NCBI GenBank assembly: GCA_013041765.1
Contig: JABDRL010000110.1
Coordinates: 1-37,310 of the forward strand
Source: Dactylosporangium sp.
Lineage (GTDB): Bacteria; Actinomycetota; Actinomycetes; Mycobacteriales; Micromonosporaceae
DNA: 37,310 nt
Direction: 5' to 3'
In this document: positions 4,876-37,310 of the stretch, one piece after another
Position numbering within the stretch: position 1 is the first letter of the stretch
Layout: every line of letters begins with the position of its first letter
Notes under the pieces: model-generated
The model's input: the letters and a program-made list of their open reading frames with translations, nothing else
Database searches by the model: none
Told to the model about the DNA's origin: nothing
Translations under genes and position numbers: made by a program

Positions 4876-4993
4876 AGGCAGTCACCCCCATGGGGTAGAG
4901 AGGTACTCCCGGTACGGGAGTCTGGACGGGTGGATCATGCGGACCGGTTCACCGGTTCGCTGGTGGGCGGCCTGACAGCCGCCAAGTCCCTGT

Positions 4994-5032
4994 CTCGTGT
5001 CGGGGCTCGTTTCCCGAGCGCCCCAACACGAG
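4994..5032 (-). terminator. Imperfect stem-loop after the VirD4-like gene
   Basis: CTCGTGT plus GGGGC (4994-5006) pairs with GCCCC plus ACACGAG (5020-5032), interrupted by one mismatch, with a further short TCG/CGA pairing inside. It lies downstream of the stop at 5123. A second small stem (4905-4921, ACTCCCG) and a CTGACAG at 4972, flanked by GGCGGC/GCCGCC, are in the same 247-bp gap. Confidence 0.45.
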
Positions 5033-5122
5033 CGACCAGCCGAGAACCCGTGCGAGCATCCAGACGAGGACGTCAGCCGGGATGCTGAACGCCCTCGACA
5101 GGCAACAAGCGGGTTGGGGTGG

Positions 5123-7633: not shown

Positions 7634-9405
7634 AGCTCACCGCCGATCCCCGTCGCCGCGAGCAGATGCTCATCGCCGGACGCCTGCGACCGAAACGGCA
7701 CCCGCGAGCGGCCCGCGACCAGCAGGCCCTCGCCCCTGCCTGCCGACAGCAACAGCCGCGCCTCGCCGCCGGTCAAACCGAAGGCGTCGGTGACCGCGTC
7801 GATGGCCTGGGTCGCCTGGCGCATCAGCACCTGCGTGGCGGCGTTGGACACCACCGCCAGCCCCAGGTCCGTGCCGAGTACGTCGGCGGCGTCCTGGGTC
7901 ACCACGGTCAACCCGGCCGCCCGCTTGCGGGCCGCCTTCGACATGCGGAACAGGAACCGGGCGCCTTCGCCGTCGCGCATGAGCAGCCAGGCTTCGTCGA
8001 CCACGACCAACCGTCTGCGCCGGGTTCCCGGCGTGTCGCCGGCTGGCTGGTCGATGCGGCCCCAGATGTGGTTGAGGGCCAGCATCGTGCCGATGGTGCG
8101 CAGCTCGTCGGGTAGGTGCCGCAGGCTCCAGACGACCAGGTGGCCCTCCGGGCGGGTGCTGGTCGGTCCGTCGAACAGGTCCTTGAAGCTGCCCGACACC
8201 CACGGGGCCAGCCGGGCGGCCATCTGCTGCGCCGCCGGGTCCGGATCGGCCTTCAACGTCGCGGCCAGGTCGCGCATCAGCGGCGCCGGCCGACCCCAGG
8301 TGTGCGGGTCGTGGGTGATGCCGGCCGCCTCGTAAGTGGCGGTCATAGCCCGGTCCAGGGCTTCCCGTTCGGCCGGAGGCGGGACGGCCCCGAGCATCAC
8401 CTTGATGATCGTGTGCAGGGTCAGTTGGTGGTCGCGGAACGTCGTCGGTCCGGTGTCGGTGGGCACGTCCAGGGGGTTGAGGCGTACCCCCTGCTGGCCG
8501 AGCTGGATGACGGTGCCGCCGACGTGGTTGGCCAGGGGTGTGTACTCGTCCTCCGGATCGATCACGCTGACCTCGACCTGCTGGTACAGCGACCGCAGCA
8601 CGTCGAGCTTGACGAAGTACGACTTGCCCGCACCGCTGCGCGCGAGGACCACGCTGTTGTGGTTGTCCTGCGCCCACCGGTTCCACATCACCACCCCGTG
8701 CGAGCTGGTGTTCACCCCGTAGAGCACCGCCTCGGCGCTGACGTACTGGCCCGGAGCCGGGGCGGCCAGGTCGCCGGAGGCGAACGGAAACGCTGCCGCG
8801 AGGGCCTCGGTGTCGAAGATGCGCCGCATGCCCAGGGCGTCCACCCCCAGCGGCAAGGTGCTGGTGTAGCCCAAGTGGTGGCGGAACGTGGCCGGTTGCA
8901 GGTCCAGCAGCATCGACGCGGCGGCCGAACGTACCCCGGCCGCTGTCTCATGCAACTCGTCGAGGGCGCGGCCGTGCACGGTGACGTAGAACGCGGCGTC
9001 GTGCAGCTTCGCCGCACCCCGGGCCACCCGTTCGGACAGGTCGGCGGCGTCGGTGGCGGCGGCGTCCACGATGGGGTCGGACAACTTGCCCCGGTCGGCG
9101 TCGATGCGGCGGGTGGACTCCAGCCGGGCGCGCTGCTTGGTCAGCATCGGCGCGGCGAGCTGCGCCGGTACCGGCCGGGTGTGCACGGTGACGGTGACCC
9201 GCCCCGGGTAGGACAGCAGCGGCACCAACCAGGCCGGGCCGACCTCGGCCGGGAAGCCGCAGATGGCGAAGGTGGCGGCGTAGCCGTCGCCGAGCCGAAC
9301 ATACGTCGGGAAGATCTCTAGTACCGCTGGCGCCGGCGCCCCGTCCGACCTGGTGCTCGCGGTGGTGCTCGCGGTGGTGCGCGAGCGCGGGGACAGCAGC
9401 TTCAT
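7630..9405 (-). CDS. VirB4-like type IV secretion ATPase
   Basis: A 591-aa cytoplasmic ATPase energising the conjugation channel. Walker A, ARSGAGKSYFVKLD, lies at about residues 255-268. Walker B, RRLVVVDEAWLLM, lies at about 465-477, followed by VVTQDAADVLGTDLG and the family-typical RQATQAID. The ATG at 9405 has AAGGAG eight bases upstream and overlaps the preceding PrgI stop (TGATG). The N-terminus carries a short Thr/Ala/Ser repeat coded by a near-tandem repeat at about 9354-9382. It is shorter than proteobacterial VirB4, as is common in actinobacterial versions. Confidence 0.9.
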   Translation of the reverse strand: MKLLSPRSRTTASTTASTRSDGAPAPAVLEIFPTYVRLGDGYAATFAICGFPAEVGPAWLVPLLSYPGRVTVTVHTRPVPAQLAAPMLTKQRARLESTRRIDADRGKLSDPIVDAAATDAADLSERVARGAAKLHDAAFYVTVHGRALDELHETAAGVRSAAASMLLDLQPATFRHHLGYTSTLPLGVDALGMRRIFDTEALAAAFPFASGDLAAPAPGQYVSAEAVLYGVNTSSHGVVMWNRWAQDNHNSVVLARSGAGKSYFVKLDVLRSLYQQVEVSVIDPEDEYTPLANHVGGTVIQLGQQGVRLNPLDVPTDTGPTTFRDHQLTLHTIIKVMLGAVPPPAEREALDRAMTATYEAAGITHDPHTWGRPAPLMRDLAATLKADPDPAAQQMAARLAPWVSGSFKDLFDGPTSTRPEGHLVVWSLRHLPDELRTIGTMLALNHIWGRIDQPAGDTPGTRRRRLVVVDEAWLLMRDGEGARFLFRMSKAARKRAAGLTVVTQDAADVLGTDLGLAVVSNAATQVLMRQATQAIDAVTDAFGLTGGEARLLLSAGRGEGLLVAGRSRVPFRSQASGDEHLLAATGIGGEL

Positions 9406-10289
9406 CAGGTACTCCTTGTGGTGATCGGGACGCCGGGTACGGCCCGGGGCCCGGGTGTCGGCGGGTCGTAGGGGTCGACCGCACTCGCGAGGGCGGCGGT
9501 GACCGCCCCGCCGTCGAGCGGGTCGGCGGCCACACCCAACGCGGTGAACGCCCGGACGGTGGCCTCCCTGGCGGGGCCGGCCGGCACCACCGTCAGGGCC
9601 TGGCGGCGCAGCGGATCGTGGGTCTGGTCGAGTTCCAGCAGGAATGCGGCGTAGTCGTCGGCTGCCGCGCGCAGCGCCTCGTGCGGTAGCCGGGGCGTGG
9701 CGTCGAGGACCGCCTGCGCGTACGGGGTCAGGTCATGACGTTGGGCGACCACCACGATCTGCGCTGGGCCGGTCAGCGCGTTGAGCCATTGCCCGAACCC
9801 GGCCAGCAGCGCCCCCTGTTCCTGCCCGGTGCGCAGTGCGACGTTGGTGGTGCCGCAGGCGATCATGGTGCAGGCGGCGCCGTCGACGGTCAGCGTGCCG
9901 TCGGCGGCGATGGTCGTGACCGGGGTCCGCAGCGGCGCCGGTGGCCTCGGCGGCCCGGTCGTCGCGACCAGCGGCTGCCCGCTGCGGGCGGCGCCGGGGG
10001 TTTGCAGCTTTGCCACCCGCCGCAGCGCGAGGCCGTGGCGCAGCCATAGGTCCAGCGGCAGCCCGTCGCGGCGGCCGAGGGCGACGACCACGGTCACCCC
10101 GGCGATCGGGATGGCGGCGATCACCCAGGCGATCGGGGGTAGCAGCGGCCCGAAGCGGGTGTAGGCCAGCCAGCCGGCGGCGGCAACCGTGCCGATGATG
10201 GCGAGCTGGCGAAAGGTCAAACCCCAGGCGATCTTGTCGGGAGTTCCGATGTCGGCGGGCACCGAGGCCCTGGGAAGGTCGTCGTCCAT
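9405..10289 (-). CDS. PrgI-family T4SS membrane protein
   Basis: A 294-aa protein. The first 110 residues match the PrgI family: an IGTPDKIAWGLTFRQLAII start, then two membrane helices at about 28-46 and 49-71, then a basic LRHGLALRRVAKL segment. The C-terminal two thirds is an Ala-rich soluble domain of unknown role. PrgI proteins in Gram-positive systems sit between the membrane protein and VirB4, exactly as here. The ATG at 10289 has GAGGAGAG upstream. It ends one base inside the VirB4 start, showing a tight operon. Confidence 0.85.
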   Translation of the reverse strand: MDDDLPRASVPADIGTPDKIAWGLTFRQLAIIGTVAAAGWLAYTRFGPLLPPIAWVIAAIPIAGVTVVVALGRRDGLPLDLWLRHGLALRRVAKLQTPGAARSGQPLVATTGPPRPPAPLRTPVTTIAADGTLTVDGAACTMIACGTTNVALRTGQEQGALLAGFGQWLNALTGPAQIVVVAQRHDLTPYAQAVLDATPRLPHEALRAAADDYAAFLLELDQTHDPLRRQALTVVPAGPAREATVRAFTALGVAADPLDGGAVTAALASAVDPYDPPTPGPRAVPGVPITTRST

Positions 10290-10316
10290 GGCAGCTCTCC
10301 TCGTCAGGACAGGTGA

Positions 10317-11228
10317 TCAGCGGCGGCCGACCGGGATCCGCAGCCGGCGGGTGATCGACTGGACAACCACGGCGCGCAGCACCAGCCCGGCGCTGGACAT
10401 CTGGCCGCCTCGGGTGACGTAGCGGGCGACCAGCTTCGGGATGTGCACGGTCACCCACAGCAGGCAGGCGGCGATGAACAGGTTGAAGGTGTCGGTGCTC
10501 GCCGTGGTCGGCCCGGTGCCCAGCAGCAGGATCTGCACGTTGCGGTCCGGGTCGAGCAGCAGCTCCACACCGGTGGAGAAGAAGATCGCTTGCAGGACCG
10601 GGGTGGCCACGCAGCCCAGCAGCGCCCGCCACCACAGCGCGGCAGCGGCCTGGGTCTGCGGAAGGGCGTGGCAGGCCAGCGCGACCGGCGCGACGCCAGC
10701 GAGGACGATCAGCGTGGCGATGCGGGCGAACCAGCCGACCAGCAGCATGTAGAACAGCACGACGATCAGCAGTCCGATCACCACAGCGAGCAGACCTGCG
10801 GTCGGATCGCGCATCGCCGAGACGATGCGGTCCTGGACGAACCCGACGACCTTCGTTCCCGACGCGGTCTTGCCGACCATGGCGGTCATGAGGGCGTTGG
10901 CCGTCTCGGTGAGCATCTGACACAGCTCGACGCCGAAGTTGGCGATGACGAAGCCGAACACCAGTCGCGGCAGCAGGTCTTTGGCCTGGTATCGGATCTG
11001 GAAGGTGCCGTGCCCCATGGCGATGGCCCCAGCGGCGATGATCGCCAGTACGAACGCGGCGTTGACCACCACGACCGAGCGGTCCACCAGAGCCTGGACC
11101 TGCGGGAAGCCGGTGACGTCCGGGGAGGTGAAGAACGTGGCGGTCAGGAACGAGACCAGCCCGCCGAGCATGCCGGTGACATGCTTGGCGAGCCAGTCGA
11201 TCAGGCCGTTGTACAGCCAGTCGGTCAT
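10317..11228 (-). CDS. VirB6/TrbL-like polytopic channel protein
   Basis: A 303-aa protein with about five or six hydrophobic segments, including VVVNAAFVLAIIAAGAIAMG, LLAVVIGLLIVVLFYMLLVG and LIVLAGVAPVALACHALP. The layout (short amphipathic start, several helices, conserved AGVAPVALACHALPQT, basic C-terminus ending in RR) fits the VirB6/TrbL class of inner channel proteins. It lies between the pilin and PrgI genes on the same strand with gaps of 12 and 27 bp. The ribosome-binding site is weak, so coupling to the pilin gene is likely. Confidence 0.8.
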   Translation of the reverse strand: MTDWLYNGLIDWLAKHVTGMLGGLVSFLTATFFTSPDVTGFPQVQALVDRSVVVVNAAFVLAIIAAGAIAMGHGTFQIRYQAKDLLPRLVFGFVIANFGVELCQMLTETANALMTAMVGKTASGTKVVGFVQDRIVSAMRDPTAGLLAVVIGLLIVVLFYMLLVGWFARIATLIVLAGVAPVALACHALPQTQAAAALWWRALLGCVATPVLQAIFFSTGVELLLDPDRNVQILLLGTGPTTASTDTFNLFIAACLLWVTVHIPKLVARYVTRGGQMSSAGLVLRAVVVQSITRRLRIPVGRR

Positions 11229-11240
11229 GACGGTGGCCCG

Positions 11241-11543
11241 TCAGCCGCCGAGGATGTCCTGCAGCACCTGCAGGATCACCGGGGCGAGCACCGCCAGGGC
11301 GTAGCCCGCGAGGGCCGCCTTGAAGTTGCCCTTGGCCTGTTCGGCCTGGGCCGGGTCTCCCCCGGCGGTCATGTACCGCAGACCCCCGATGACGAGGAAC
11401 AGGGTGGCCACGGCCGCCAGGATTCCCATGATCCACAACTTGAGGCCGTCGATGACCTCGGGAATGGTCTTCGCCGCCAGGACATCCGGCGCCGGTGCGC
11501 CGAGCAGGTCCCCAGCGACGGAGACGATGGTGTACGCGTGCAT
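11241..11543 (-). CDS. VirB2-like T4SS pilin subunit
   Basis: A 100-aa small hydrophobic protein with two membrane segments: LWIMGILAAVATLFLVIGGL at about 36-55 and ALAGYALAVLAPVILQVLQD at about 77-96. They are separated by a polar loop with MTAGGDPAQAEQAKGNFKAA. This two-helix layout and position at the head of the operon fit VirB2/TrbC-type pilins of Gram-positive conjugation systems. The ATG at 11543 has GGAG about eight bases upstream. A cleaved leader is not evident. Confidence 0.8.
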   Translation of the reverse strand: MHAYTIVSVAGDLLGAPAPDVLAAKTIPEVIDGLKLWIMGILAAVATLFLVIGGLRYMTAGGDPAQAEQAKGNFKAALAGYALAVLAPVILQVLQDILGG

Positions 11544-24101: not shown

Positions 24102-25040
24102 TCAGCAACTGTGGAGCGCGGCGATGATCTCCTGTTCGGCGCCCCGGACAGCGAGTATGAGGTCGTCCAGCAGCTGCGGTGGCACGGTGGTGCCGAGGCT
24201 GGCTGCTCGTACGGTTTCGCGCAGTACGGATGCGCTGTGCTCAGCGAGCGGGAGTTGGCCGCCGAGCGCGAGGATGTCCTGGGCGGCGTAGGCGTCGGCC
24301 GCTTCGACGACGATCCGCTCGATCGTCCGGCCGATCGACCGGAGATCACGGGCGTCACTGGTGAGACTGGCGGCGGTGAGACCGAGCCGGATGTGGAACA
24401 CCGTGTGGCCGGGGTCGGGCTCCAGCCGCAGGTACGCCTCCCGCATGGCTGCGGTCTCCGACAAGGCTGGTTGTCCAGCCCAGGTACGGCAGAGGACCGT
24501 CAGGCACGCGGCGACTGTCTGCTCCCACACGGTGGAAGCCGTCGTGGTGTCGATGAGGCGGAGCGCCTCGGCGTGGTCTCCGACAGCGCTGTGGGCCACG
24601 ATCGCGATCTGGCGACCGTCGAACAGCCGCTCACCGATGCCGCGATGCTGCTCGGCCTGTGCGAGCACTTCAGACCACCGACCGGCACGGCAGCGGGCGC
24701 GGAGGCCGTCGGCGAGCAGGACGGTCCAGAGCCACTGAACGACGGCCTGGTGATCGTCACCGGATCGCACGACCCTCGCGAGGTCGACCTCTCGACCGTC
24801 GATGCTGGCCGTGGTCAGCGCCTTCGCAGCCTGGAACATCGAATGGTGCACCCGGTACGCGGCATTGCCGTGGCCGTCGCGGGTGTGTAGTCGTCCGAGA
24901 TTGATCAGGGGTTGGAGGGCAAGCTTCGCGGTGGCCTGCTCGTACGGGCCGGCGGTGGCAAAGGCGTCGAACTGGCGCCAGCACAGCTCGCGGGCGGAGT
25001 CGGGCATCGCGCAGTCGGAGAGGATCAGCGCGGCGAGGTT
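24102..25040 (-). pseudogene. Distal fragment of the split lanthipeptide-operon gene
   Basis: This open frame encodes the last 312 residues of a helical-repeat, TPR-like protein (NLAALILSDCAMPDSAREL at the junction, later LALQPLINLGRLHTRDGHG, VVQWLWTVLLADGLRARCRA and AVGDHAEALRLID). An ATG at 25007 is available but has no convincing ribosome-binding site, and coding-like sequence continues upstream of it to the transposon edge at 25041. The missing N-terminus is at 31,196-31,000 beyond the transposon. The intact protein would have about 376 residues. It was probably a cytoplasmic accessory protein of lanthipeptide biosynthesis; I recall similar proteins near FxLD-type clusters but cannot verify this here. 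Confidence 0.8.
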
Positions 25041-25086
25041 GAACTGTTGGTAAGAAACATGTCACCAGCCGCAACCGGAGATGGTC
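25041..25086 (+). repeat. Left terminal inverted repeat
   Basis: Begins GAACTGTTGGTAAGAA; from 25043 it matches the right repeat over 44 bp with six mismatches. The invariant inner block is TGTCACCAGCCGCAA (25060-25074). Confidence 0.85.
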
Positions 25087-25128
25087 GTGCCGGCCATCAT
25101 GAGGAGCCGATCGGCTCGCGAAAACGGT

Positions 25129-26196
25129 CTACACGAGTCTGCGCTCAAGCGCTCTGAGGCTGTCGTTCATCTGCGTGATCTCATGTCCAAGACTGCTGCC
25201 GAACCTAGACGACCGCAGTTCGCCAGCTACTTCGCCCAGAATCGTTGTATTTTTTTCGTGCTGTCGAGCGACAGCGTCGACAATCATCGCGTTTCCCGAA
25301 CGGATAGTGTCCCCTAGACGGTCTACTGCGTCTTGAAGCGAAGAGAAACCGGAGATTACTGCAGCCGTCGTTCGGCGTTGCTCGTATATGGATGCGAACT
25401 GAAAGTCGGTTTGGGCCTCATAGACCGTTTTTCTGAAGCGATCAGCGACTGCCCCTCCGGCGCGTGATCGTCCGATTTCAGTGAATCCGGTCGGGATCGG
25501 CTCTGCCGTAACATGCCCCAGCTCGGGAGTATCCCGAAGCCGTTCTCGTAGTGACTCGTGCCGACGAATGACGGCAAGAAGCCTCTCCGCGCTGAGTCGG
25601 TACTCGTTGAGCGCCCCGAGGCCGATTTCGACCGTTTCCCAGAACGGCGTATACGCCGACCTGCGTTGGTGTTTGACCGCCAACTCCAACTTCGTAGTAG
25701 CGGTCTCCAACTGCACGAGGGTGGCGCGATAGTGCTCGGCAACGAGGCGGGGCGAGGAAACAACATCGTTTTGCAGTGCTTTCAGCTCCTCCGTCCTGCG
25801 AGCCTGTTCTCGTGTCGCTTGCTCGCGTTCCCGCTGTATTTCGGCCATCCGTGCGCGCTCCTGCGCCTCGGCGGCGTGGCGGTTTATCTTGTGCGACCAG
25901 ATCATCCGGTTCACCAGAAAAGCTACGAACGGAGTCGCGATGCCGAGGATGGCGCCGATGCAGACCCAGACAAACGATGCCTTAAACCATGCGTTATCTG
26001 CGGGATCCGGGACGTCAATGAATGCGCTGGCAACCGAATACAGAAACCGTATCGGTTGTCTCATCTCCTGCAGTGGACCCTTTTCTTGTGCCATCATGAA
26101 GGATGCCATGAAACCGACTACGAAAGAGCCAACCCCTGCAGCTACACCCATCTCCTCCAGCATCGGAAATCCAGGCTTCTGGGATGCGTTTTTCAT
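25129..26196 (-). CDS. Transposon cargo: two-helix membrane protein with coiled coil
   Basis: A 355-aa protein not recognised. Two hydrophobic segments lie near residues 17-35 (GVAAGVGSFVVGFMASFMM) and 69-92 (ASFVWVCIGAILGIATPFVAFLV). A long charged coiled coil follows at about 100-135 (AAEAQERARMAEIQREREQA). The rest is helical and cytoplasmic, ending SLGHEITQMNDSLRALERRL. The ATG at 26196 has only GAGG close upstream; the longer frame to 26316 overlaps the neighbouring gene. Base composition and codon use are far less GC-rich than the host DNA. It lies 62 bp behind the other cargo gene, so the two form an operon of unknown role. Confidence 0.75.
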   Translation of the reverse strand: MKNASQKPGFPMLEEMGVAAGVGSFVVGFMASFMMAQEKGPLQEMRQPIRFLYSVASAFIDVPDPADNAWFKASFVWVCIGAILGIATPFVAFLVNRMIWSHKINRHAAEAQERARMAEIQREREQATREQARRTEELKALQNDVVSSPRLVAEHYRATLVQLETATTKLELAVKHQRRSAYTPFWETVEIGLGALNEYRLSAERLLAVIRRHESLRERLRDTPELGHVTAEPIPTGFTEIGRSRAGGAVADRFRKTVYEAQTDFQFASIYEQRRTTAAVISGFSSLQDAVDRLGDTIRSGNAMIVDAVARQHEKNTTILGEVAGELRSSRFGSSLGHEITQMNDSLRALERRLV

Positions 26197-26258
26197 GGGA
26201 CCTCGATACGGATGGGGTGGGGGGATAAGGTGCAGTTGCTGAAGCTTACTCAGCAAGC

Positions 26259-26972
26259 TCAGTAGTTTTGCTTCGCGATAACCTTGCCAACTGGCGTGTC
26301 GGGGCTCTGGCCGCATTCGTAGTCAACGTTCAGTCGAGCCATGGGATTTCCGGCCCCAGTGGCACCCTTCTCAACACCAATGGTCTTTACGGCATGATCG
26401 CGATCTTCCGTCGAGGCTTTGAGGTAGTCTCGGCAGGAGGTATTCTCGGTGATTGTTGCCGAGTTGACCGTATTGCGAACCCACACAACAATTTTCGTCG
26501 CACCCCAGCCGAGAGCTAGCACTACTGCGATAACAGCTATGACCGCAAGCGGCCCTCCGTAGCTCGTACGTTTGTTTTTGGTATTGGTGTTGTTGATGTC
26601 TCGACCGGCTTGGTTGATCCGTGCGCGATTTCCAGCGGAAATCTGCTGCACGGTTGTCTGCTGAGAGTCAGATCGACCGATCTTCTCGATGAGATCCTCC
26701 AAACGAACGGCGGCCTCGGGCTGGTTTTCTAGTAGAGTTTCGAGTCGCCCCTGCCAGCGGCCGGCCGCCACGGCAGCCTCCACGTGGCCTGCGCGTATCG
26801 CGTCACGTGTCTCGCTCAACTGTCCGGCTACTTGGCGTTCGCGCTCCGAGTCGCCGCCGCTAAAGATTTGTGCGATCCTGTCGCGAAAAGCGACCCAGCT
26901 GTCCGTGGCCATGGCTTGCACGACGGCCTTTCCGGCTGCCGCCGCCAGTGCAGTGAGTGCCGCATCCAACAT
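26259..26972 (-). CDS. Transposon cargo: single-pass membrane protein with amyloid-like motif
   Basis: A 237-aa protein. Residues 1-95 are helical (LDAALTALAAAAGKAVVQA and on). The section GNRARINQAGRDINNTN at about 125-141 resembles Gly/Asn-rich beta motifs in actinobacterial conflict proteins, some of which act as amyloid-like signalling motifs. A membrane helix follows (LAVIAVIAVVLALGWGATKIVVWV). The outside domain of about 70 residues has two Cys (TSCRDYLKAS and DYECGQSP), reminiscent of HdeA-like folds. The ATG at 26972 follows GAAGGAGA. It is lower in GC than the host. Function is unknown; a sensor/partner role with the downstream gene is inferred only from adjacency. Confidence 0.75.
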   Translation of the reverse strand: MLDAALTALAAAAGKAVVQAMATDSWVAFRDRIAQIFSGGDSERERQVAGQLSETRDAIRAGHVEAAVAAGRWQGRLETLLENQPEAAVRLEDLIEKIGRSDSQQTTVQQISAGNRARINQAGRDINNTNTKNKRTSYGGPLAVIAVIAVVLALGWGATKIVVWVRNTVNSATITENTSCRDYLKASTEDRDHAVKTIGVEKGATGAGNPMARLNVDYECGQSPDTPVGKVIAKQNY

Positions 26973-27047
26973 ATCCGAATCTCCTTCATCAGCACCGGCG
27001 TCGGGCAATGAGTGCCGCCCGACAAGGAAAACGAATGGCGACAGGAA

Positions 27048-27077
27048 AAGTTCCGAATGTCGTCGAAGTCGGAACTT
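27048..27077. repeat. Inverted repeat, candidate recombinase site
   Basis: Two 9-bp arms, AAGTTCCGA and TCGGAACTT, flank a 12-nt spacer. Tyrosine-recombinase core sites have this general form (paired inverted arms around a crossover region), though the usual spacer is 6-8 nt, so an operator is equally possible. Confidence 0.4.
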
Positions 27078-27136
27078 CCCGCCATGATCGCCACGACGAC
27101 GTCGCAGCTCACGGGTGTGATCGTCGATCATGATCG

Positions 27137-27165
27137 GAGAGGGAACCGGCGAAGTTCCCTCTCCC
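27137..27165. terminator. 11-bp hairpin upstream of transposase
   Basis: GGAGAGGGAAC (27137-27147) pairs with GTTCCCTCTCC (27155-27165) around a 7-nt loop. It could stop read-through into the transposase or act as an operator. Confidence 0.5.
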
Positions 27166-27211
27166 GTGGTCAATCCGGAGCTTCGGCCGGGATCGGCTCG
27201 TTGGACCGGGT

Positions 27212-27274
27212 ATGGACGCCCACGACCGTTTTCCGGATCCTGAGCGGGGTCCGGGCACGAAGCGGCAGCGGTAG
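27212..27274 (+). CDS. Possible 20-codon leader peptide of tnpA
   Basis: ATG at 27212 opens a 20-residue frame (MDAHDRFPDPERGPGTKRQR) whose TAG overlaps the GTG of the transposase by one base. The overlap suggests translational coupling, which is a common way to limit transposase synthesis. Its ribosome-binding site is weak, and chance cannot be ruled out at this length. Confidence 0.3.
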   Translation: MDAHDRFPDPERGPGTKRQR

Positions 27275-30210
27275 TGGCCCGCCGGCTGGAGCTGGACGAG
27301 TTGGTCGACCAGTGGACATTGCTGGACGGCGAGCAGCCGCCGGTGGCGGGCAAGCGGGGTCCGACCCGGCTCGGGTTCGCGGTGCTGTTGAAGTTCGTCA
27401 CCCAGTTCGGCCGGTTCCCCCGCGGGCGCAGCGAACTACCCGACGAGGCGGTGGAGTTCGTCGCCCGGCAGGTCGGGGTACCCGCTGCGGATTTGGGGTT
27501 CTACGAGTGGGTTGGGCGGACGGCCGAGTACCACCGCGCCCAGATCCGTGCGCACCTGGGGTTCCGCGAGTGTTCCGTGGCCGACGCGGACAAGCTCACC
27601 GGGTGGCTGGCTCGGGAGGTGTGCCAGGCCGAGGTGGTCCGCGCGGAGTTGCTGGGCCGTTGCCGGACTGAGCGGATCGAGCCACCGTCGCTGGCGCGGG
27701 TGGACCGGATCCTGCGCTCGGCGCTGTTTCAGGGTGAGCAGGCGCTGACCGCCCGGGTCACCGGGCGCCTGTCACAAGCGAGCGTTACGGCGGTCGAGTT
27801 TCTCGTGGATCCCGACGATCCGGACGGGCCGGCGGCCCTGGCATTGATCAAGTCGGTGCCGGGCAGTGTGAGTCTGGAGTCGATGCTCACCGAGATCCGT
27901 AAGCTCCGCGCGGCCCGCGCGATCGGCCTGCCGCACGACCTGTTCGCGGAGGTGGCGCCGAAGATCCTTGCCGGTTGGCGTACCCGGGCTGCGGTGGAGT
28001 CCCCGTCGCATCTGCGTGATCATCCGCCGCTGCTGCGGCAGACGCTACTGGCGGCTTTGGTGCATACCCGGCTGCGGGAGATCACCGACGCGTTGGTGGA
28101 GTTGCTGATCGCCACGGTGCACCATATCGGCGCCCGCGCCGACCGGCGGGTCACCCAGGAGCTGGTCAACGCGTTCAAGCGGGTGACCGGCGAGGAGCAC
28201 ATTCTGGCCACGATCGCCGAGGTGTGTCTGGGCCGCCCCGACGAGGCGGTCCGCAAGGTCGTCTACCCGGCCGTTGACGGTGGGAAGGCCACGCTGCGGG
28301 AGCTGGTGCACGAGTTCCGCACGAAGGGGCCGGTGTACCGGCACACGGTGCGGGTGACGTTGAAGGCGTCCTACACCAATCACTATCGCCGTGGCCTGGT
28401 CGGCCTGCTGGACGTGCTGGAGTTTCGCTCCAACAACACCGCCCACCAGCCGGTCGTCGACGCCCTCGCGGTGATCAGACGGCACGCGGGCACGGCTGGG
28501 TTGACCTACTACCCGGTCGATGAGCAGGTGCCGACGCATCACGGGATCACCGCTGACTGGCAGCCGCTGGTCTACAAGGAAGGGAGGAAGGGCCGCCGTC
28601 GGGTGGTTCGGGGGGTGTATGAGATGTGCACCTTCCAGGCGTTGCGGGACCGGCTGCGCTGCAAGGAGGTCTGGGTGGTCGGCGCCGACTCGTGGCGTAA
28701 CCCCGACGAGGACCTCCCGCAGGATTTCGAGGCCCGCCGGGTCGAGCACTACGCCAAGCTCCGCAAATCCCTGGACCCCACCGACTTCATCGACGAGCAC
28801 CGGGCAGCGCTTGTCGCGTTCAACGAGGCCCTCCCCGATCTTGACTGGGTGCAGATCGCCGACCGGGGCAAGCGCGGGGCGATCAAACTCACCCCGCTGG
28901 ACGCGGTCCCCGAACCGCGCAACCTGCGCCGGTTGAAGCGGGAGGTCGCCGACCGGTGGGGCACGGTCCCGCTGATCGACATGCTCAAGGAGGCGGTGCT
29001 GCGCACCGGCTGCCTGGCCACGATCACCTCCGCCGCCACCCGCGGCGACCTCCCGGCAGAGGTCCTGGTGGAGCGGCTGCTGCTGGCGATCTACGCCTAC
29101 GGCACCAACACCGGCATCCGTGCTGTGGCCGCCGGCGAGCACGGCCACAGCGAGGACGACATCCGGTACGTCCGCCGCCGCTACCTCACCCCCGACCTGG
29201 TATGGGCGATGGCCATCGACATCGCCAATGCCACCTTCGCTGCCCGCCAGCAGCACATCTGGGGTACCGGATCCACCGCCGTCGCCTCCGACTCCACCCA
29301 CGTCGGCGCGTGGGACGAGAACCTGCTCACCGAATGGCACTCGCGCTACCACGGCCGGGGCGTGTTCATCTACTGGCACGTCGAACGACGCTCCATGGTG
29401 ATCCACTCCCAACTGCTGCGCTGCTCCGCCTCCGAGGTCGCCGCGATGGTCGAAGGCGCCATGCGCCACCAGACCAGCATGGACGTGCAGGCCAACTACG
29501 TTGACAGCCACGGCCAGTCCGAGATCGGCTTCGGCATCACCCGGCTGCTGGTCTTCGACCTGCTACCACGCATCAAACAGATCAACAAGGTCAAGCTGTA
29601 CCTACCCGCAGCCGGGGAACGCGACGCCTACCCCAACCTGGCCGCAGCGCTAACCCGCCCGATCCGGTGGGACATCATCGCCGACCAGTACGACCAGATG
29701 ATCAAATACGCGACCGCGATCCGCACCGGCTCGGCCTCGACCGAGGCGATCCTGCGCCGGTTCGCCAAGGCCAACGCCATCCACCCCACCTACCATGCCA
29801 TGATCGAAGTCGGGCGAGCGCAGAAGACCCTGTTCGTCGCCCGCTACCTACGCGACCGGGACCTACAGCGGGAGATCAACGCCGGCCTCAACGTCGTGGA
29901 GTCCTTCAACGGCGCCAACGCCGTCATCCACTTCGGCAAAGGCGGCGACATCGCCACCAACCGCCGCGAGGAGCAGGAACTGGCCGTGCTGTGCCTGCGC
30001 GTGCTGCACGCCGCGATGGTCTACATCAACACCCTGATGCTCCAGGACGTCCTCGCCGAAGACGCCTGGATGAAGCTGCTGACACCCGAGGCCCAGCGCG
30101 GGCTGACCCCGCTGTTCTGGAGCAACGTCGCCCCCTACGGCGAGATCCGCCTCAACATGACCCGCCGCCTGACGCTGCGCACCGACCCACCACGGGAGCG
30201 ACCATCATGA
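27274..30210 (+). CDS. tnpA: Tn3-family transposase
   Basis: A 978-aa protein, the normal length for Tn3 transposases. The N-terminus is the DUF4158 type ([21 protein letters not shown], then [22 protein letters not shown]). The C-terminal DDE domain shows the first Asp in [14 protein letters not shown] (about residue 672), the second in [13 protein letters not shown] (about 744) and the Glu in [14 protein letters not shown] (about 876), so it looks intact. It performs replicative strand transfer at the element ends. The GTG at 27274 is the first start after an in-frame stop and has no clear ribosome-binding site. It overlaps the recombinase gene by 4 bp. Confidence 0.92.
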
Positions 30211-30944
30211 CCGTCGACACGGCCGAGACCGACCCAGCCGCACCGGCGCGGACCGCGGCCCGCCGCAAAGCCCGCGAGCTGGCCAAATACCTGCGCGGCG
30301 AGCGCCCCGACTACTCCTACCTCAAAGACGTCTTCCGCCACCTACGTGCTGAGCTCGACATCGAAGTCGCCCGCGCCCCGAAACGCCTGCCGTACGTGCC
30401 CACCGAGGCCGAGTTGCGCGCCTTCTACCAAGCGGTCTGGCAAGCCCGCCGCACCAGCGACATCATCCTCATCCGCACCCTGCTCTACACCGGCGTGCGC
30501 GTCTCCGAACTCGTCCGCATCCGCTGCGACGACGTCGACCTCGACGCCTGCCGCATCCACATCATCTGCGGCAAAGGCGGCAAAGACCGCTACGTGCCCT
30601 TCCCCCGCCCGTTCGCCGAGACCCTCGCCCTGCACATCGACGCCCAACGCCGAGCCGGCGCCAGCCACCTGTTCGAATCCTCCTGGAAGAAGCCCTACAC
30701 CGACCGCGGCGTCCGCAAGATCCTCACCCGGTACACCCAAGCCGCCGGCATCACCGCCTCGATCAGCCCTCACACCCTGCGGCACTTCCTGTTCACCTGG
30801 CTCAAGACCCAGGGCATCGACGACGCCCTCATCCAGCCCTACTCCGGCCACAAGACCCGCCAGTCCCTGGAGATCTACTCCCGACTCGCCCTCGCCGACG
30901 CCCAAACCACCTATGACCAGGTCATCAACCGGTTCCCAGTCTGA
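30207..30944 (+). CDS. Tyrosine recombinase, TnpI-like resolvase
   Basis: A 245-aa phage-integrase-type enzyme. Catalytic residues are all present: Arg in [12 protein letters not shown] (about residue 97), Lys in [12 protein letters not shown], the box [12 protein letters not shown] (about 192), His in YSGHKTRQ and the Tyr nucleophile in LEIYSRLA (about 226). In Tn4430-like transposons such a protein resolves cointegrates made by the Tn3 transposase. Here it is downstream of tnpA and coupled by ATGA at 30207. It ends ten bases before the right inverted repeat. A role in host-gene inversion between the inverted ends cannot be excluded. Confidence 0.9.
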
Positions 30945-30954
30945 CCAGCAGAAA

Positions 30955-30999
30955 GATCATCCCCGTTTGCGGCTGGTGACACGGTTCTTACCAGCAGTC
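30955..30999 (-). repeat. Right terminal inverted repeat
   Basis: Read inward on the minus strand it starts GACTGCTGGTAAGAACC. It matches the left repeat over 44 bp (30998-30955) with six mismatches. It supplies a chance stop codon (TGA at 30959-30957) to the interrupted host gene. Confidence 0.85.
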
Positions 31000-31196
31000 A
31001 GGTCGTGGGCCTCGGCGGCGCGCAGCAGCGACTCGGCGGTGCGTTGGCTGGCCAGGTCCGCCTGGTGGCGGACCCGGCCGATGCGGTCGATCAACGGCGG
31101 GCAGGCCGGCTTGCGTCGAGGTACCAGCGGGAACCGCTGCGCGGCCAGGTCGCCCAGGCTCCGGTGGACGGTGGTTGTCTCGGCGTTCGTCGTCAT
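31000..31196 (-). pseudogene. Proximal fragment of the split lanthipeptide-operon gene
   Basis: The ATG at 31196 has GGGAGG upstream and encodes 64-65 native residues ending LASQRTAESLLRAAEAHD. Reading then runs into the transposon repeat and stops at 30957, adding about 14 foreign residues. The phase at 31004 equals the phase at 25040, where NLAALILSDC resumes, so the two pieces form one gene of about 376 codons. It follows the methyltransferase gene after 55 bp and would be the fourth gene of the lanthipeptide operon. In the present state only a truncated, probably inactive peptide can be made. Confidence 0.82.
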
Positions 31197-31251: not shown

Positions 31252-33303
31252 TCACCACGTGATGGCGAACGTGGAGTGCGGGCGGACGATGTGCGCCTGA
31301 GCGTCGTCGAGCTGCGGGCTGCGGCCGGCCCTGTAGGCCGTGATGGCGGGCTGGGCCGGCCGTTCGCCGTCCCACTGGTGCAGCAGGTCGACGGTGCGTG
31401 AGATCAGCTTGGTGCTGTCGGGGCCGTGGGCGATGAGGCCGAGTTCCATCGTGTCATCGTTGAGGTCACGGGTGGCCAGGTAGGCCAGGCAGCCGTTGTC
31501 GTAGAGCGCGGCACCGCCCCAGCGGGGCGCGGGGTTGGCCAGGCCGGTCACGCGGGCGGTGGCGCCGACCGACAACCGGCCGAAGCAGTCCACGGTGGTG
31601 GTCAGCAGCCACAGGTCCAGGTGCTCGGCGGGCTCGTCGTGGCGGACCTGGATGCCGGTCCAGTGTTCCTGGTCGGGATGGGTCAACGTGCGTTCCAGGT
31701 CGGGGTGGCCGGGCAGATCCTCGGCGTCGACCTTGAGGACGGCGTCGTCGGCGAGCCGCACGTGCCGTTCGTCGTGTTCGGCCTGCCCGCGCATCGGTAC
31801 GAACCCGCACACCACGGCGGAGGTGCTCACCATGCGGTCGGCCTCGGTCAGGTCGAAGGCGATGGCGCGGGTCAGGCCGCTGCCGTGCAGTCGGATCGGC
31901 ACGACGATCCGGCCGCAGGGGGCCAGTTGCTCCCACCAGCTGCCGACGACGTCCCAGGCTTCGGCGGTGACGATGATGCGGTCGTAGGGGGCGTGCTCCG
32001 GGCGGCCCTGCGCGCCGTCCCCGCAGATGACCTTCACCTGGGGATAGCCGGCGCGGTGGAGGTTCGCTGCGGCACTGGCGGCGAGGTCGGCGTCCAGCTC
32101 GATGGTGACCACGGTGCCGGTCGGGCCGACGAGTTCGGCCAGCAGGGCGGCGTTGATGCCGGTGGCCGCGCCGATCTCCAGCACCCGCTGGCCGGTGCGG
32201 GCGTCGAGTTGTTCGAGCATGGTGGCCACCAGTTTCGGGCTGGAGGCCGATGAGATCGACGTACCGTCGTCGGTGCGGCGGGTGACCACCGGCTTGGTGC
32301 CGTAGGCGATGGCCAGGTCGACGCCGGGCAGGAACAGGTGCCGGGGCACGGTGCGGAACGCGGCCTCGACCTGCGGGGTACGAAAGGTGCCCCACCCTTT
32401 GATGGAGTCGGCGAGGTCGTCGCGGAGCCGTGCGGCGTGATCGGCAGCGTCGGTGGTCACCGTGGTCAGGGTAGCCGTGCCGGTACCGGGCACCGTGCTG
32501 GTCTGGACGCTGCCGGCGCGGTCGGGTGATGGGCCGAACGCGGCCCGACGGGCGGCGGTGGCCAGTAGATACTGGTCGTCGCCGGAGATGCCGTGCCGGT
32601 TGAACAGGAACAGCAGGTGGTGGGCGAGCACCGCACGCAGTCCACGGGTCAGCTGGCCGGCGCCGGCGAGGTCGGCCAGACGGCGACCGGCGTCCTCGAC
32701 CGCGGTGGTCCAGCCGGATACGGTGTGTAGCGGGCTGTCGGGGCGGTCATCGGTGGCGGTGATGAGCTGCCGGACGGCGGCAACCATGGCGGGCGAGGGC
32801 TCCCGCTGCGGCGTGATCGTCCGGTGCTCGGCAAAGCACGCCCAGCAGTCGCCCTGCTCGTAGAGGTCCAGACCTGCGGCCCGCAGCAGCCGTGCGGACA
32901 GGATCACCGCCAGCTCCCGCCGGTAGGTGTGCCGGTCGGCGGCGAGGGAGTCCAGCAGGTACCGGCTGTCGGCCTCGAACACCTCGTGGGTCAGGTCCAT
33001 GCCGGCCGGGCCGCCGAAGGCGTGGGTCTCCGGCTCGTAGATGGTCTCCGTGGCCGCCCGCACCGGCCCGTGCTCGGTGAGTGCGCCGATGGCCTGGTCG
33101 ATGAACGCGTCCGAGACTGCGCGCAGCCGCACCCGCCAGGTGCTGCCTTTGCGGACGAACCACCAGCCACCGATGGCTCCGGCATCCTGCGCGCGGCCCA
33201 GCAGCGGCCGGAGTTCGCTGATGCCCATCTGTTCGGCGGCGGCCCAGTCATCGCAGGTGAGGTTGAGTTGGCGCCACTGGGTGGCCGGGGCCGGGTTGGT
33301 CAT
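31252..33303 (-). CDS. Lanthipeptide isoaspartyl-methyltransferase-like enzyme, FxLD/LanSA type
   Basis: A 683-aa two-part enzyme. Residues 1 to about 260 form a thiopeptide/SpaB C-like domain (GGWWFVRKGSTWRVRLR, then DSRYLLDSLAADRHTYRRELA). From about 310 a protein-L-isoaspartate methyltransferase domain follows, with TSISSASSPKLVATMLEQL, SAM motif VLEIGAATGINAALL (about 374) and YDRIIVTAEAWDVVG (about 439). A C-terminal extension of about 170 residues follows. Relatives in lanthipeptide clusters methylate an Asp of the modified precursor, leading through a succinimide to isoaspartate. The ATG at 33303 follows AAGGAG. It is 31 bp behind lanC. Confidence 0.85.
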   Translation of the reverse strand: MTNPAPATQWRQLNLTCDDWAAAEQMGISELRPLLGRAQDAGAIGGWWFVRKGSTWRVRLRAVSDAFIDQAIGALTEHGPVRAATETIYEPETHAFGGPAGMDLTHEVFEADSRYLLDSLAADRHTYRRELAVILSARLLRAAGLDLYEQGDCWACFAEHRTITPQREPSPAMVAAVRQLITATDDRPDSPLHTVSGWTTAVEDAGRRLADLAGAGQLTRGLRAVLAHHLLFLFNRHGISGDDQYLLATAARRAAFGPSPDRAGSVQTSTVPGTGTATLTTVTTDAADHAARLRDDLADSIKGWGTFRTPQVEAAFRTVPRHLFLPGVDLAIAYGTKPVVTRRTDDGTSISSASSPKLVATMLEQLDARTGQRVLEIGAATGINAALLAELVGPTGTVVTIELDADLAASAAANLHRAGYPQVKVICGDGAQGRPEHAPYDRIIVTAEAWDVVGSWWEQLAPCGRIVVPIRLHGSGLTRAIAFDLTEADRMVSTSAVVCGFVPMRGQAEHDERHVRLADDAVLKVDAEDLPGHPDLERTLTHPDQEHWTGIQVRHDEPAEHLDLWLLTTTVDCFGRLSVGATARVTGLANPAPRWGGAALYDNGCLAYLATRDLNDDTMELGLIAHGPDSTKLISRTVDLLHQWDGERPAQPAITAYRAGRSPQLDDAQAHIVRPHSTFAITW

Positions 33304-33334
33304 CGCGAGGTTCTCCTTGCTGGGTGCGGATCGG

Positions 33335-34594
33335 TCAGTTGATCAGTAGGCAGGTCGGCCACGGGCTGGCTACGCCTCGGGCGATGGTGTGCAAGGTCAG
33401 GGCAACCCCGGCACGCCCCTCGATCAGGCCGACCAGCCGCTCGGGGCCGGTGTCGTCGGCATGGTTGACGAGCGCCCGCAGCAGCTCGGGCAGGTGCCCG
33501 GTCAGGTGTGGCGTGGTGGCGTCGGCGGCGGCGTACCAGGCGGTGACCGCCACCCCGGCCCAGCCGTGGCAGAGGTTGGCATCGCGCAGGCGACCGAGCT
33601 GGACCGCGTCGGCCAGACACCGGTGCAGGGCGTGTTCGGCGGCGGCCTGTCGGCTGTGGTCACCCCGGGTCAGGCCGGCCAGTTGCTGGGCGCGGGCCAG
33701 CCCTGGGGTGCCGTAGCACCAGGACGGTCGGGCCGGTCCCGCCTGGGTCGGGCGCCCGGCACGAAGGTCGGCGAGGGCGATGCGTTCGGGCCACCACGGT
33801 CCGGCCGGGCCGGGTTGGCGCCAGCCGTCGAGCCACCCGCAGATGCGGTCGATGGCCACGGTCTGGCCGGGCACGGTGATGCCGCGTCGCAGGGCGAGGG
33901 CCAGCAGCGCCAGAGGACCGGCGATGCCGTGGGCCATGCCCTGGTCGGCGTGGCCGCCGCGTACCTGCGGATGGCCGGAGGGTGGGTCGGCGGTCCACCA
34001 GCCCGGTGCGCCGGTGCCGGCTTCGTCGGGCGCCGGGACTGGTTCGGTGAGCCGGATGAGATAGGCGAGCACGTCTCGGATCTGGCCCCCGTCGGGGTGG
34101 TGGGCCAGGATGTGCGCGCCGAGTCCGGTCAGGCCACGGACCAGGTCGAACTCCGACAGGGACGGGCGGGCCGCCGCGGCGATGCGCTCGTGGGCGGCCT
34201 CCAGCCGCCGCTGGATCAGCCGAGTCACGGCGGCGTCGAGCGTGGCCCGGGTCTGCCGGTAGCCGCCCGGGGCGCAGGTGCCCAGGGCGAAGGCGACCGC
34301 CGGGGCGCCGAACCACAGGCCCGCGCCGGGGCCGGCACTGAGGTCTTCGCTGACCGCGCGGGCCAGCCAGTCATGTACCTGGCGGTCGTGGCCGTGGCCG
34401 GTCTGGGTGCGGACGGCGTGCAGGATCGCCACCCCGGCGGCGCCCTTGGACAGCGACTGGTGCCGCCAGCGCGGGCTGCTGGGGCTGTGGTCGCCGTCGT
34501 CGTTGACCGGGGCCGGGGCGGTCAGCTCGTCGCAGAGGTCGGCGGCGGCGGTCGTCGCATCGGATACCGGGAGGCGCTGCTCGCTGAGGATCAT
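33335..34594 (-). CDS. lanC: Lanthionine synthetase C-like cyclase
   Basis: A 419-aa LanC-family protein that should add Cys thiols to dehydrated residues, making lanthionine rings. Zinc-site motifs are complete: HGIAGPLALLAL near residue 219, the Cys of SWCYGTPGLARA near 291 and the Cys-His of LCHGWAGVAV near 341. The length matches the family. The ATG overlaps the LanB stop by 4 bp, so dehydratase and cyclase are co-translated. The cytoplasmic enzyme acts on the same leader-bound precursor as LanB. Confidence 0.9.
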   Translation of the reverse strand: MILSEQRLPVSDATTAAADLCDELTAPAPVNDDGDHSPSSPRWRHQSLSKGAAGVAILHAVRTQTGHGHDRQVHDWLARAVSEDLSAGPGAGLWFGAPAVAFALGTCAPGGYRQTRATLDAAVTRLIQRRLEAAHERIAAAARPSLSEFDLVRGLTGLGAHILAHHPDGGQIRDVLAYLIRLTEPVPAPDEAGTGAPGWWTADPPSGHPQVRGGHADQGMAHGIAGPLALLALALRRGITVPGQTVAIDRICGWLDGWRQPGPAGPWWPERIALADLRAGRPTQAGPARPSWCYGTPGLARAQQLAGLTRGDHSRQAAAEHALHRCLADAVQLGRLRDANLCHGWAGVAVTAWYAAADATTPHLTGHLPELLRALVNHADDTGPERLVGLIEGRAGVALTLHTIARGVASPWPTCLLIN

Positions 34595-37310
34595 GTCCGG
34601 GGTGCCTTCGCGGTGTGGTGGCGGGCGTTGTGGGCGAGCGCGACGGCACGGGCCAGCTTGTAGGTGCGGGCCTCGGTGGCGGCATCAGCGCTGTGTGCCC
34701 GGTTGTGGTGCAGGTGCAGCAGGGACACCGCGACCGCCGCCGGCCGTGGACCGCCCTCGGGCAGCGTGCCCGCGTACGCGTTCGCCGCCTGGCGGCGGGC
34801 CTGCCAGCTCGGCGTAAGCAGTGCCCCACCGGGCCGGCTCGCCGTGTCGCGGCCATCGGTTCCGGAGGCGGCCAGGTCGAGGGTCTGTCGCAGCACGGCC
34901 CGGTCACTGGCCCCGGCACGACCGGCGATGTCGGGGTGCTCCAGCAGCCACCGCACCGCCGTGGCCTGGTCGCCGAGCAGACCGGCGAGCAGGTCGATCA
35001 GGCTGGCCGCCGTCAACGCATCCGGATGTACCTGCCCGGTGGTGGTCGCGGTGAGCTGCGCGACGGCCGCCGCCGAGTCGGCCGCGAACAGTTCCTCGAC
35101 GGCGACCCGCGCGGCGCCGCCGCCGTAGCGGGCGATCTCCGGCCGGTAGGTGTCCAGGGTCAGCTCACCGACCAGGCCGGCCCGGCGCAGGCCGCTCGCC
35201 CAGGCGCCGACCCGTTCGGCGTCGCGGCCGTAGCCGTCGGTGCGGATCCGCAGGCGAAGGTGCGGCGCGGGGTCGTGGTAGCGCACGAACCACCACACCG
35301 GCGGGGTGTCCCATGCGGCCAGCAGCGCCGGCAGGTGCGCGGTGAGGACGGTGTCGGAGGTCTCGGCGGGGCCGTACAGCTTGGCCGACAGCATCGTCGA
35401 GCCCGGCAGGTGCCCATGTTCGGCGTCGACGAGCGGTAGCGGTCCTTCGCGGCGTAGTACCGCAGGTGCCGGCAGCGATGGTGTGGTCGCCGCGAGCGGG
35501 ATGACGACCTCGTGCGCGCGGCCGTCGAACCAGCCGTACTCGGCCGGGTCGGGGGCCTCGGTGAGCGTGACCGCGTCCCCGGCGCCGTCCAGGTGGGTAC
35601 GCAGCAGCGTCAGCCCCATGGGGTCGTCCAGGCACAACCGCAGGCGCCGGTCGGCGGTACCGACCGAGACCCAGGACGGGAGGCACAGCCGCTCCCGAAG
35701 CCGCTGGGCGGCGCCTGTCCACGCTGCCCATCCGGCCATCTGACCGGGCAACGCCCCCGGCGGGATTCGCCAGCAGGCCGGGGCCAGGATGGAGCGCCGG
35801 TAGCGCAGGCGGGGCCGGAACGGCAGGCACGCGGCCGTACCCCAGTCGAACACCGTCAGCGGCGCGCTGGTGGCGCTCGGGATCTCCACCAGCAGCCGGG
35901 CGAGGGCGGGCATGGTGTGCCAGGCCGCCGCGCAGGCCAGCACCGGCTCGACCACCCGTCGCCGCGACAGCGACACCAGGTAGCAGCGGTCGGAGTCGGC
36001 AGTGACGGCGAGGTCGTCCAGCACGATGCGGTCGCCGGCTCGATCACGGTGCTCGGCCAGCGAGACCACCGCCGGCAGCACCTGCGGGACCCGGGTGACG
36101 TTCTCGACCCGAGGATGATGCGGGGGGAACGAGATCTGGGCGACCAGCGCCGCGTCCACCCGGGTCGGCAGGCTGCCCATCCGCCGCCGGTCGGCATCGG
36201 GCAGCAGGTCGAGGAACCGGCCGCTGGTCGCGAGCGCGCTGCGGCCGACACCGGTCACCGCCAGGGTGAAGTACCCGGCCTCCAGCGCGGCCGTGGTGGC
36301 GGCACGCACCTCGACGGTCACGTCCAGATGTGGTGCCGGCCGCAGTTCGCCGCACGACTCGCCCGCCAGGACGTCGACGGCACTGTCGTCGAGCACCACC
36401 TCCTGGGTGCCGTCGAGTGCCGCCTGCTGAGCCAGCGCCAGCAGGCGTTCATCCCGACCCGACCGCTGCGGAACGTGGCCGAAGCGGTCCGGGTGGGCGG
36501 TGTGGCGCGGGAAGCCGAGGCCGGCGACCGGATCCACGAGCTGGCTGACGGGCACCAGCGCACCGCCGCCGAAGCGGTCCAGGAACCGCGCGTGGTACTC
36601 CCGCCACGCCGCTGTGCCCGCCGGAGCCGGGCTCAGCCGCAGCAAGGTTTCGGCGGCTGTGGCGGCTTCCACCGCGACCGGCGGTGGAAGGACCAGGGAG
36701 CAATCCATCCGCAGGTCGACGGCGAGCGGTTGGACGGCGGTACGGTCCGGGGTCCGCATCCGGGCCGTCACGACAGCAGCACGTCCACCCACCGCTGGCC
36801 GGGGACAGGCCGCGAGCTGCCGATGGATGACGCGAAGCTCGCCGACCATCGCAGCGACCTCGGCGGCGTCGGCGGCGTTCACCTCGTCCAGCGCGTCGAG
36901 GACGTGGCCGAGACCGTCGACCGTCGTGGATGGCGGTCGCAGATTCGTGATCAACGCGCCGCACGTCACCAGCTCGGTGACCATCGCCTCGACGGCTTCC
37001 GCGGAGGCATGGGGGAATTCGGCGGCGAGCTTGCCAAGCAGGTCGGCAACCGCTACCGGAGCATCGGCGGTCCGCAGGACCAGCGCGACCGGCGGCGTAT
37101 GCCGCAGCGACACCTCCACCGGCGCAGACCGGGCGGGATCACCGGCGTGCGGCTGCCACCGTACCCACAGCCTGACCCCACGCACCTCGATCAGATCGTT
37201 GGCAACCACCCGCAGCCGGCGCAGCAACGGCCGGCACGCCTCCAGTTGGGCGACCATCCCGGCCAGCCACACCCCGTCGGCGCGGGCACGCACGTGATGG
37301 GCGCCGGTCC
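34591..37310 (-). CDS. lanB: LanB-type lantibiotic dehydratase, 5' end outside window
   Basis: At least 905 codons, open to the right edge. The visible part begins within the N-terminal glutamylation domain, matching text that normally follows the TPFGLFAGV motif (VWLAGMVAQLE, then LRVVANDLIEVRG and ALITNLRPPSTTVDGLGHVL), so about 120-150 residues are missing. The GTG at 37293 is therefore not the real start. The C-terminal elimination domain is clear (STMLSAKLYGPAETSDTVL, WWFVRYHDPAPHLRLRIR near residue 668). It dehydrates Ser/Thr of the precursor using glutamyl-tRNA. First gene seen of the leftward operon; the precursor gene should lie upstream, out of view. Confidence 0.9.
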   Translation of the reverse strand, partial: TGAHHVRARADGVWLAGMVAQLEACRPLLRRLRVVANDLIEVRGVRLWVRWQPHAGDPARSAPVEVSLRHTPPVALVLRTADAPVAVADLLGKLAAEFPHASAEAVEAMVTELVTCGALITNLRPPSTTVDGLGHVLDALDEVNAADAAEVAAMVGELRVIHRQLAACPRPAVGGRAAVVTARMRTPDRTAVQPLAVDLRMDCSLVLPPPVAVEAATAAETLLRLSPAPAGTAAWREYHARFLDRFGGGALVPVSQLVDPVAGLGFPRHTAHPDRFGHVPQRSGRDERLLALAQQAALDGTQEVVLDDSAVDVLAGESCGELRPAPHLDVTVEVRAATTAALEAGYFTLAVTGVGRSALATSGRFLDLLPDADRRRMGSLPTRVDAALVAQISFPPHHPRVENVTRVPQVLPAVVSLAEHRDRAGDRIVLDDLAVTADSDRCYLVSLSRRRVVEPVLACAAAWHTMPALARLLVEIPSATSAPLTVFDWGTAACLPFRPRLRYRRSILAPACWRIPPGALPGQMAGWAAWTGAAQRLRERLCLPSWVSVGTADRRLRLCLDDPMGLTLLRTHLDGAGDAVTLTEAPDPAEYGWFDGRAHEVVIPLAATTPSLPAPAVLRREGPLPLVDAEHGHLPGSTMLSAKLYGPAETSDTVLTAHLPALLAAWDTPPVWWFVRYHDPAPHLRLRIRTDGYGRDAERVGAWASGLRRAGLVGELTLDTYRPEIARYGGGAARVAVEELFAADSAAAVAQLTATTTGQVHPDALTAASLIDLLAGLLGDQATAVRWLLEHPDIAGRAGASDRAVLRQTLDLAASGTDGRDTASRPGGALLTPSWQARRQAANAYAGTLPEGGPRPAAVAVSLLHLHHNRAHSADAATEARTYKLARAVALAHNARHHTAKAPRT

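Follow-up and report, generated by a model that had tools for sequence, protein, structure and literature searches.

A Tn3-family transposon of Dactylosporangium sp. carries a probable Bell-BASS-type protein with a membrane anchor and an HdeA-like outer domain

A low-GC gene pair inside a Tn3-family transposon

Two adjacent leftward genes are carried by a Tn3-family transposon in the window, the whole 37,310-nt stretch of Dactylosporangium sp. DNA that was analysed. P0001 (26972-26259, that is 26259..26972 on the minus strand) encodes 237 aa comprising a putative Bell-type helical domain, an amyloid-type motif, a membrane helix and an HdeA-like ectodomain, and P0002 (26196-25129, that is 25129..26196 on the minus strand) encodes 355 aa comprising two membrane helices, a long coiled coil and a conserved helical domain (PFWE...IYEQRRT...GFSSLQ). 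The ATG of P0001 lies 8 nt behind the Shine-Dalgarno sequence AAGGAG, and the most likely start of P0002, the ATG at 26196, lies 4 nt behind GAGG. The genes are co-directional, separated by 62 nt, and alike in low GC content and codon use. Their GC content of 57.6%, compared with 70.5% for the window, is approximately the minimum among all 1844-bp stretches of the window (mean 70.4%, sd 3.5), and third-position GC is 0.63 in both genes versus 0.90 in the transposase. An earlier note had described a leftward low-GC gene pair carried as transposon cargo, and our analysis confirmed its place, strand, base composition and position between terminal inverted repeats. Third-position GC is not elevated in either ORF, and codon statistics alone cannot separate P0002 from a statistically similar antisense ORF, so that homology was needed as proof of coding. 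Since homologues exist for both frames, with conserved domain limits, unbroken reading frames and a ribosome-binding site each, the view that these ORFs are spurious or decayed is contradicted and can be set aside as highly improbable. Neither protein gave a match over cut-off in Pfam, NCBIfam, PADLOC, PHROGs or PDB sequences; in PADLOC-DB 2.0, P0001 had no match and P0002 reached only LmuB, at an E-value of 0.87.

The element is bounded by a left terminal inverted repeat (25043..25086, plus strand; 44 nt, 86% complementary to 30955-30998) and the right repeat with which it pairs (30955..30998, minus strand). Between them, beside the cargo pair, lie a Tn3-family transposase (27274..30210, plus strand; NF033527, E 7.8e-216) and a tyrosine recombinase, the TnpI-like resolvase of the element (30207..30944, plus strand; PF00589, E 1.1e-28). 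Transposase, recombinase and repeats are those of Tn3-family transposons with a TnpI-like recombinase. In contrast with the window element, five related elements (tnpA identity of 64-75%) have the same repeat approximately 60-95 bp from tnpA with nothing between, and P0001 and P0002 are therefore an addition between the left repeat and tnpA. A search for a 5-bp target duplication at the element ends found no matching 5-mer, which may reflect changes at these ends since the insertion; the Tn3-family placement stands because both the repeat family and the transposase support it.

The element (24102-31196 region) adjoins P0004, a fragment of a TPR-like regulator outside the element. Most homologues of P0004 are far longer ORFs, and the insertion therefore probably split this regulator gene. 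Elsewhere in the window, a class I lanthipeptide cluster (Lant_dehydr_N/C, LANC_like and a Lant_dehydr_C-PCMT fusion) spans 31252-37257, and conjugation-type genes (Replic_Relax, a TraG/TrwB-type coupling protein and a TraG P-loop protein) at 4000-11543 suggest an integrative conjugative element or plasmid. In another genome (L174:483-9179 on G089:C2; the same stretch is in L168), two genes follow directly on a tnpA gene 75% identical to that of the window: one for a membrane protein of two helices in which GQSVT...V.QV..V.GDV motifs recur, the other for an AAA/STAND-TPR protein of 1703 aa that bears this motif at its N-terminus. The right repeat of that element was not found in the 15 kb read. 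Should the pair prove to be within the element, amyloid-type modules would be a repeated cargo of Tn3 transposons.

The helical bundle and amyloid-type motif of P0001

Descriptions of bacterial amyloid signalosomes pair an internal NLR receptor with an effector. Bell-BASS/NLR amyloid signalosomes of actinobacteria were reportedly described by Dyrka et al. in 2020 and have been reviewed (PMC7889193). Bell domains with BASS motifs have been documented in filamentous bacteria (PMC7889193), motif models are available (PMC8086366), and cell death by Bell domains stands as a hypothesis in the published work (PMC7889193).

The N-terminal part of P0001 (residues 1-107; 26652..26972, minus strand) is assigned as a five-helix bundle of the Bell effector type on the basis of its structure model, a family profile and the STAND neighbours of its relatives. 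The model places five helices within residues 4-107, with block pLDDT values of 93-98 across residues 1-100. Relatives of P0001 occur in 85 of the 301 genomes of the host's bacterial family, where matches stem mainly from the N-terminal domain and most alignments cover just residues 1-130 or so. The family profile gathered 93 distinct Bell-type ORFs, and 80 stretches were fetched around P0001 matches and related genes. Relatives that have the N-terminal domain are mostly proteins of 105-210 aa ending in a short G/N/Q-rich motif, and in the fetched stretches a gene coding for a P-loop STAND protein typically lies close behind, the partners examined bearing NB-ARC, NACHT, AAA/STAND and TPR domains of Pfam. 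Through these relatives, P0001 has a supported tie to immune-type STAND modules. A survey of 345 genomes of the class gave matches outside the bacterial family that spanned the bundle and motif only, and no relatives of P0001 were found in viral contigs. A structural match of P0001 to the plant Rx-CC domain (rank 15, Z 2.1) was too weak to retain.

Motif comparisons delimit an amyloid-signalling-type motif at residues 102-131 of P0001 (26580..26669, minus strand), with the core GNRARINQAGRDIN at residues 114-127, in a region that is largely disordered in the model. Among the relatives, the motif at the tail of the effector recurs at the N-terminus of the neighbouring protein, significantly so by a shuffle test at 23 of 45 loci. 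When a fixed local score of at least 46 was taken to mean a shared motif, 21 of 44 downstream neighbours reached it; among 20 upstream neighbours a single one did so (L065, likewise a STAND gene), and the rate in mismatched pairs was 1.9%. The P0001 motif aligns with those of canonical pairs, L068 (effector NATATGQARIYQSGRDQHI, neighbour AAEGHDHARIYQAGRDLHV) and L069, and belongs to the subgroup x-G-x-A-R-[IV]-x-Q-A-G-R-D that such pairs use. With the RHIM, PP and BASS3 motifs, P0001 has in common a short G/N/Q-rich segment between domains and a Q-x-G core (NQAGRD). It differs from RHIM in having no [IV]-Q-[IV]-G core: the fuller pattern [IV]-Q-[IVLC]-G-x-x-N is absent from P0001, whose VQQISAGN and INQAGRDIN place A before G in lieu of V, I, L or C. 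Thus, of the amyloid- or RHIM-type motif announced by the earlier note, the amyloid-signalling type is supported by motif sharing in the family and the RHIM class is not.

Taken by anatomy and neighbourhood, which were the terms of comparison in place of the published profiles, the P0001 family fits the published Bell/BASS description (PMC7889193, PMC8086366). In P0001, an amyloid-type motif comes after a small N-terminal domain made of helices, and its relatives adjoin STAND receptors that bear the same motif N-terminally. P0001 departs from that description in that its motif is succeeded by a membrane helix and an ectodomain of the HdeA fold, no NLR adjoins the gene and a transposon carries it. 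We consider P0001 to be a protein of the Bell-BASS type whose HdeA-fold tail is anchored in the membrane, with a probability of about 0.85. Because its helical domain and motif match a published type (PMC7889193, PMC8086366), the module is not strictly the undescribed system for which it had been put forward.

The membrane-anchored ectodomain and its relatives

A single membrane helix is predicted at residues 140-168 of P0001 (26469..26555, minus strand; Kyte-Doolittle value of 2.26, in a part of the model of low confidence), and the positive charges preceding it suggest that the N-terminus is inside. The remaining residues 170-237 (26262..26465, minus strand) are predicted to form a small, helical ectodomain of the HdeA/HdeB fold with two conserved cysteines, which are invariant across nine aligned relatives. 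The membrane anchor and external two-Cys domain proposed from the first reading were thus supported. The three best structural matches of the ectodomain by VIA are all HdeA/HdeB structures: 1dj8 (Z 8.6, rmsd 2.6 over 66 residues), 4xvv (Z 7.7) and 2myj (Z 7.1), the next row falling to 4.3. Foldseek ranked HdeA second with a probability of 0.91 and a weak E-value of 3.3, a profile of the ectodomain reached HdeB only at E 0.41, and a Pfam search with P0001 gave no match to the HdeA family. The likeness to these acid-stress chaperones lies in the fold and perhaps in the conserved Cys pair; identity is only 12%, and the ectodomain, unlike the soluble chaperones of the periplasm, forms the tail of a membrane protein. 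A profile match of the ectodomain to the solved structure of tau consisted of four weak repeats of 16 residues and was discarded.

Among the 93 Bell-type ORFs, a membrane helix follows in just four: P0001, L031, L032 and L060. Fusion of a Bell-type domain to a membrane helix is rare but recurrent. The HdeA-like outside domain is present in P0001, L031 and L032. In L060 (L060:377-1930), a Bell-type domain, motif and membrane helix are followed by an ectodomain of more than 300 aa that has no Pfam match, which is a second, different ectodomain on the same chassis. The closest relative of P0001 is L031, with 47% identity. At L031, 19 nt separate the Bell-type gene from the next one downstream, whose 86-aa product has two membrane helices and, C-terminally, the motif VTQSAVADGNAIINQAGGDIETR; this motif aligns to QQATASGNAQVNQAGRDI of the membrane-anchored Bell neighbour with a score of 75, compared with a maximum of 47 in 20,000 shuffles. 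That locus thus pairs a membrane-anchored Bell protein with a two-helix membrane protein through a common motif, with no adjoining STAND gene.

The P0002 model, of modest confidence, shows two membrane helices, a very long helix or coiled coil and a helical cytoplasmic region, in line with the architecture first proposed. Its structural matches (a MIC60 bundle, E 0.01) are generic coiled coils and bundles found with a low-confidence model and were not interpreted. The family, which has no name, has the core FAPFWDAVE ... FATIYEQRKTNQILVxGFxSLGxAL and is sparse, with members in Candidatus Aquicultor, Thermodesulfovibrionia, Nitrospiraceae, Parcubacteria and the Rhodococcus plasmid pWB1, the last confirmed at E 2.9e-19 by a profile built without that sequence. 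Searches of genome contigs yielded four loci with the profile and no matches with the single sequence, while the single sequence added one genome, weak or distant in its match, from each of the family and phylum sets. In the class set, the profile found the family absent from the other 295 genomes surveyed, and no relatives were found in phages. An apparent homologue in G079 (L050) matched only the membrane and coiled-coil part and was discarded. The pWB1 homologue (L029:5590-6597) lies in the transfer (conjugation) region of its plasmid and has a GC content of 52% versus 67% around it. Behind the Thermodesulfovibrionia homologue (L072:2646-3401) lies a gene resembling those of nucleoside deoxyribosyltransferases; its match to PF05014, at E 0.0028, does not reach the Pfam cut-off.

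The proposal that the two genes form one module fared less well than the rest of the earlier description. A P0001-type motif sought in P0002 scored no better than in shuffles (p 0.71), and no member of the P0002 family stands beside a P0001 relative in any fetched locus; one two-gene system is for these reasons unproven. A lack of co-occurrence was what the earlier note itself had named as grounds for rejecting its proposal. P0001 and P0002 might instead be unrelated passengers lying side by side in the transposon, a reading to which we give somewhat less than even odds. In its favour, besides the negative survey and the missing motif, their ranges differ, the P0001 family being actinobacterial and that of P0002 sporadic across phyla. 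This reading is harder to reconcile with their common strand, close spacing, individual ribosome sites and matching composition, or with the two-helix membrane protein that is also encoded by the next gene of the nearest P0001 relative. As this alternative concerns the pair only, it is compatible with our preferred explanation of P0001.

A possible membrane-anchored signalling switch

In our preferred reading, P0001 is anchored in the membrane, acts in amyloid signalling and possibly in cell death, has its own outside sensor and travels as Tn3 cargo. Its N-terminus and motif would be cytoplasmic and its ectodomain would face the cell wall. A change outside the cell would cause P0001 to cluster in the membrane; an HdeA-type fold, which by itself is no proof of sensing, would be suited to a change in pH or redox state or to unfolded protein in the envelope. 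The clustered motifs could then nucleate a cross-beta assembly, and the helical bundles brought together in this way might disturb the membrane so that the cell is stopped or killed. P0001 would thereby be sensor and executioner in one, with no NLR-type receptor required. The two-helix protein of L031, with its common motif, would represent a recruited partner. In the weakest step, a guess, P0002 may serve as a partner or anchor in the form of a membrane-anchored coiled-coil protein devoid of the motif. We hold this full mechanism at a probability of about 0.45, since the published work treats killing by Bell domains as a hypothesis (PMC7889193).

Two other explanations of P0001, both unlikely in our judgment, were weighed against this mechanism. 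According to one, P0001 is an ordinary Bell-BASS effector acting in trans with an NLR-type receptor encoded elsewhere in the genome, and its membrane tail is only an anchor at the target. Many Bell relatives are indeed single effectors beside a STAND receptor, and canonical pairs use the motif class of P0001. No STAND or NLR gene with the same motif was found beside P0001, which has P0002, the transposase and, beyond the element, P0004 as neighbours, and a motif profile showed no second convincing copy in the host genome (next best E 0.54); with this genome approximately 94% complete in 434 contigs, such a receptor could have escaped detection. Moreover, canonical effectors stop at the motif, and a trans-acting receptor would leave the conserved-Cys ectodomain without explanation.

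The other explanation, to which we give the same low credence, is that P0001 is an envelope- or acid-stress signalling or chaperone protein in which motif and bundle serve reversible clustering, not death or defence. This would accord with the HdeA/HdeB fold of the ectodomain and with the genomic setting of its simpler relatives: proteins made of the membrane helix and ectodomain alone are common in the host's bacterial family, and several of them (L034, L037, L038, L040 and L043) lie in a housekeeping setting that recurs, close to genes resembling those for alanine racemase and sigma factors. These housekeeping relatives, however, have neither the Bell bundle nor the motif, and the bundle, where present, often adjoins STAND immune-type genes.

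A bolder version of the preferred reading, which we find rather doubtful, would make P0001 the prototype of an amyloid death switch that works without a receptor, mobilised by a transposon and built from an HdeA-type sensor, an amyloid motif and a membrane-active bundle, with outside domains that can be swapped. The presence of an effector domain and motif within a membrane protein that has an outside domain would, if true, mean that amyloid signalling also reports on the cell envelope. P0001 would then offer a small module of one or two genes with which to ask directly whether Bell domains kill, and its carriage by a selfish transposon suggests that modules of this kind may be exchanged as cargo for defence or addiction.
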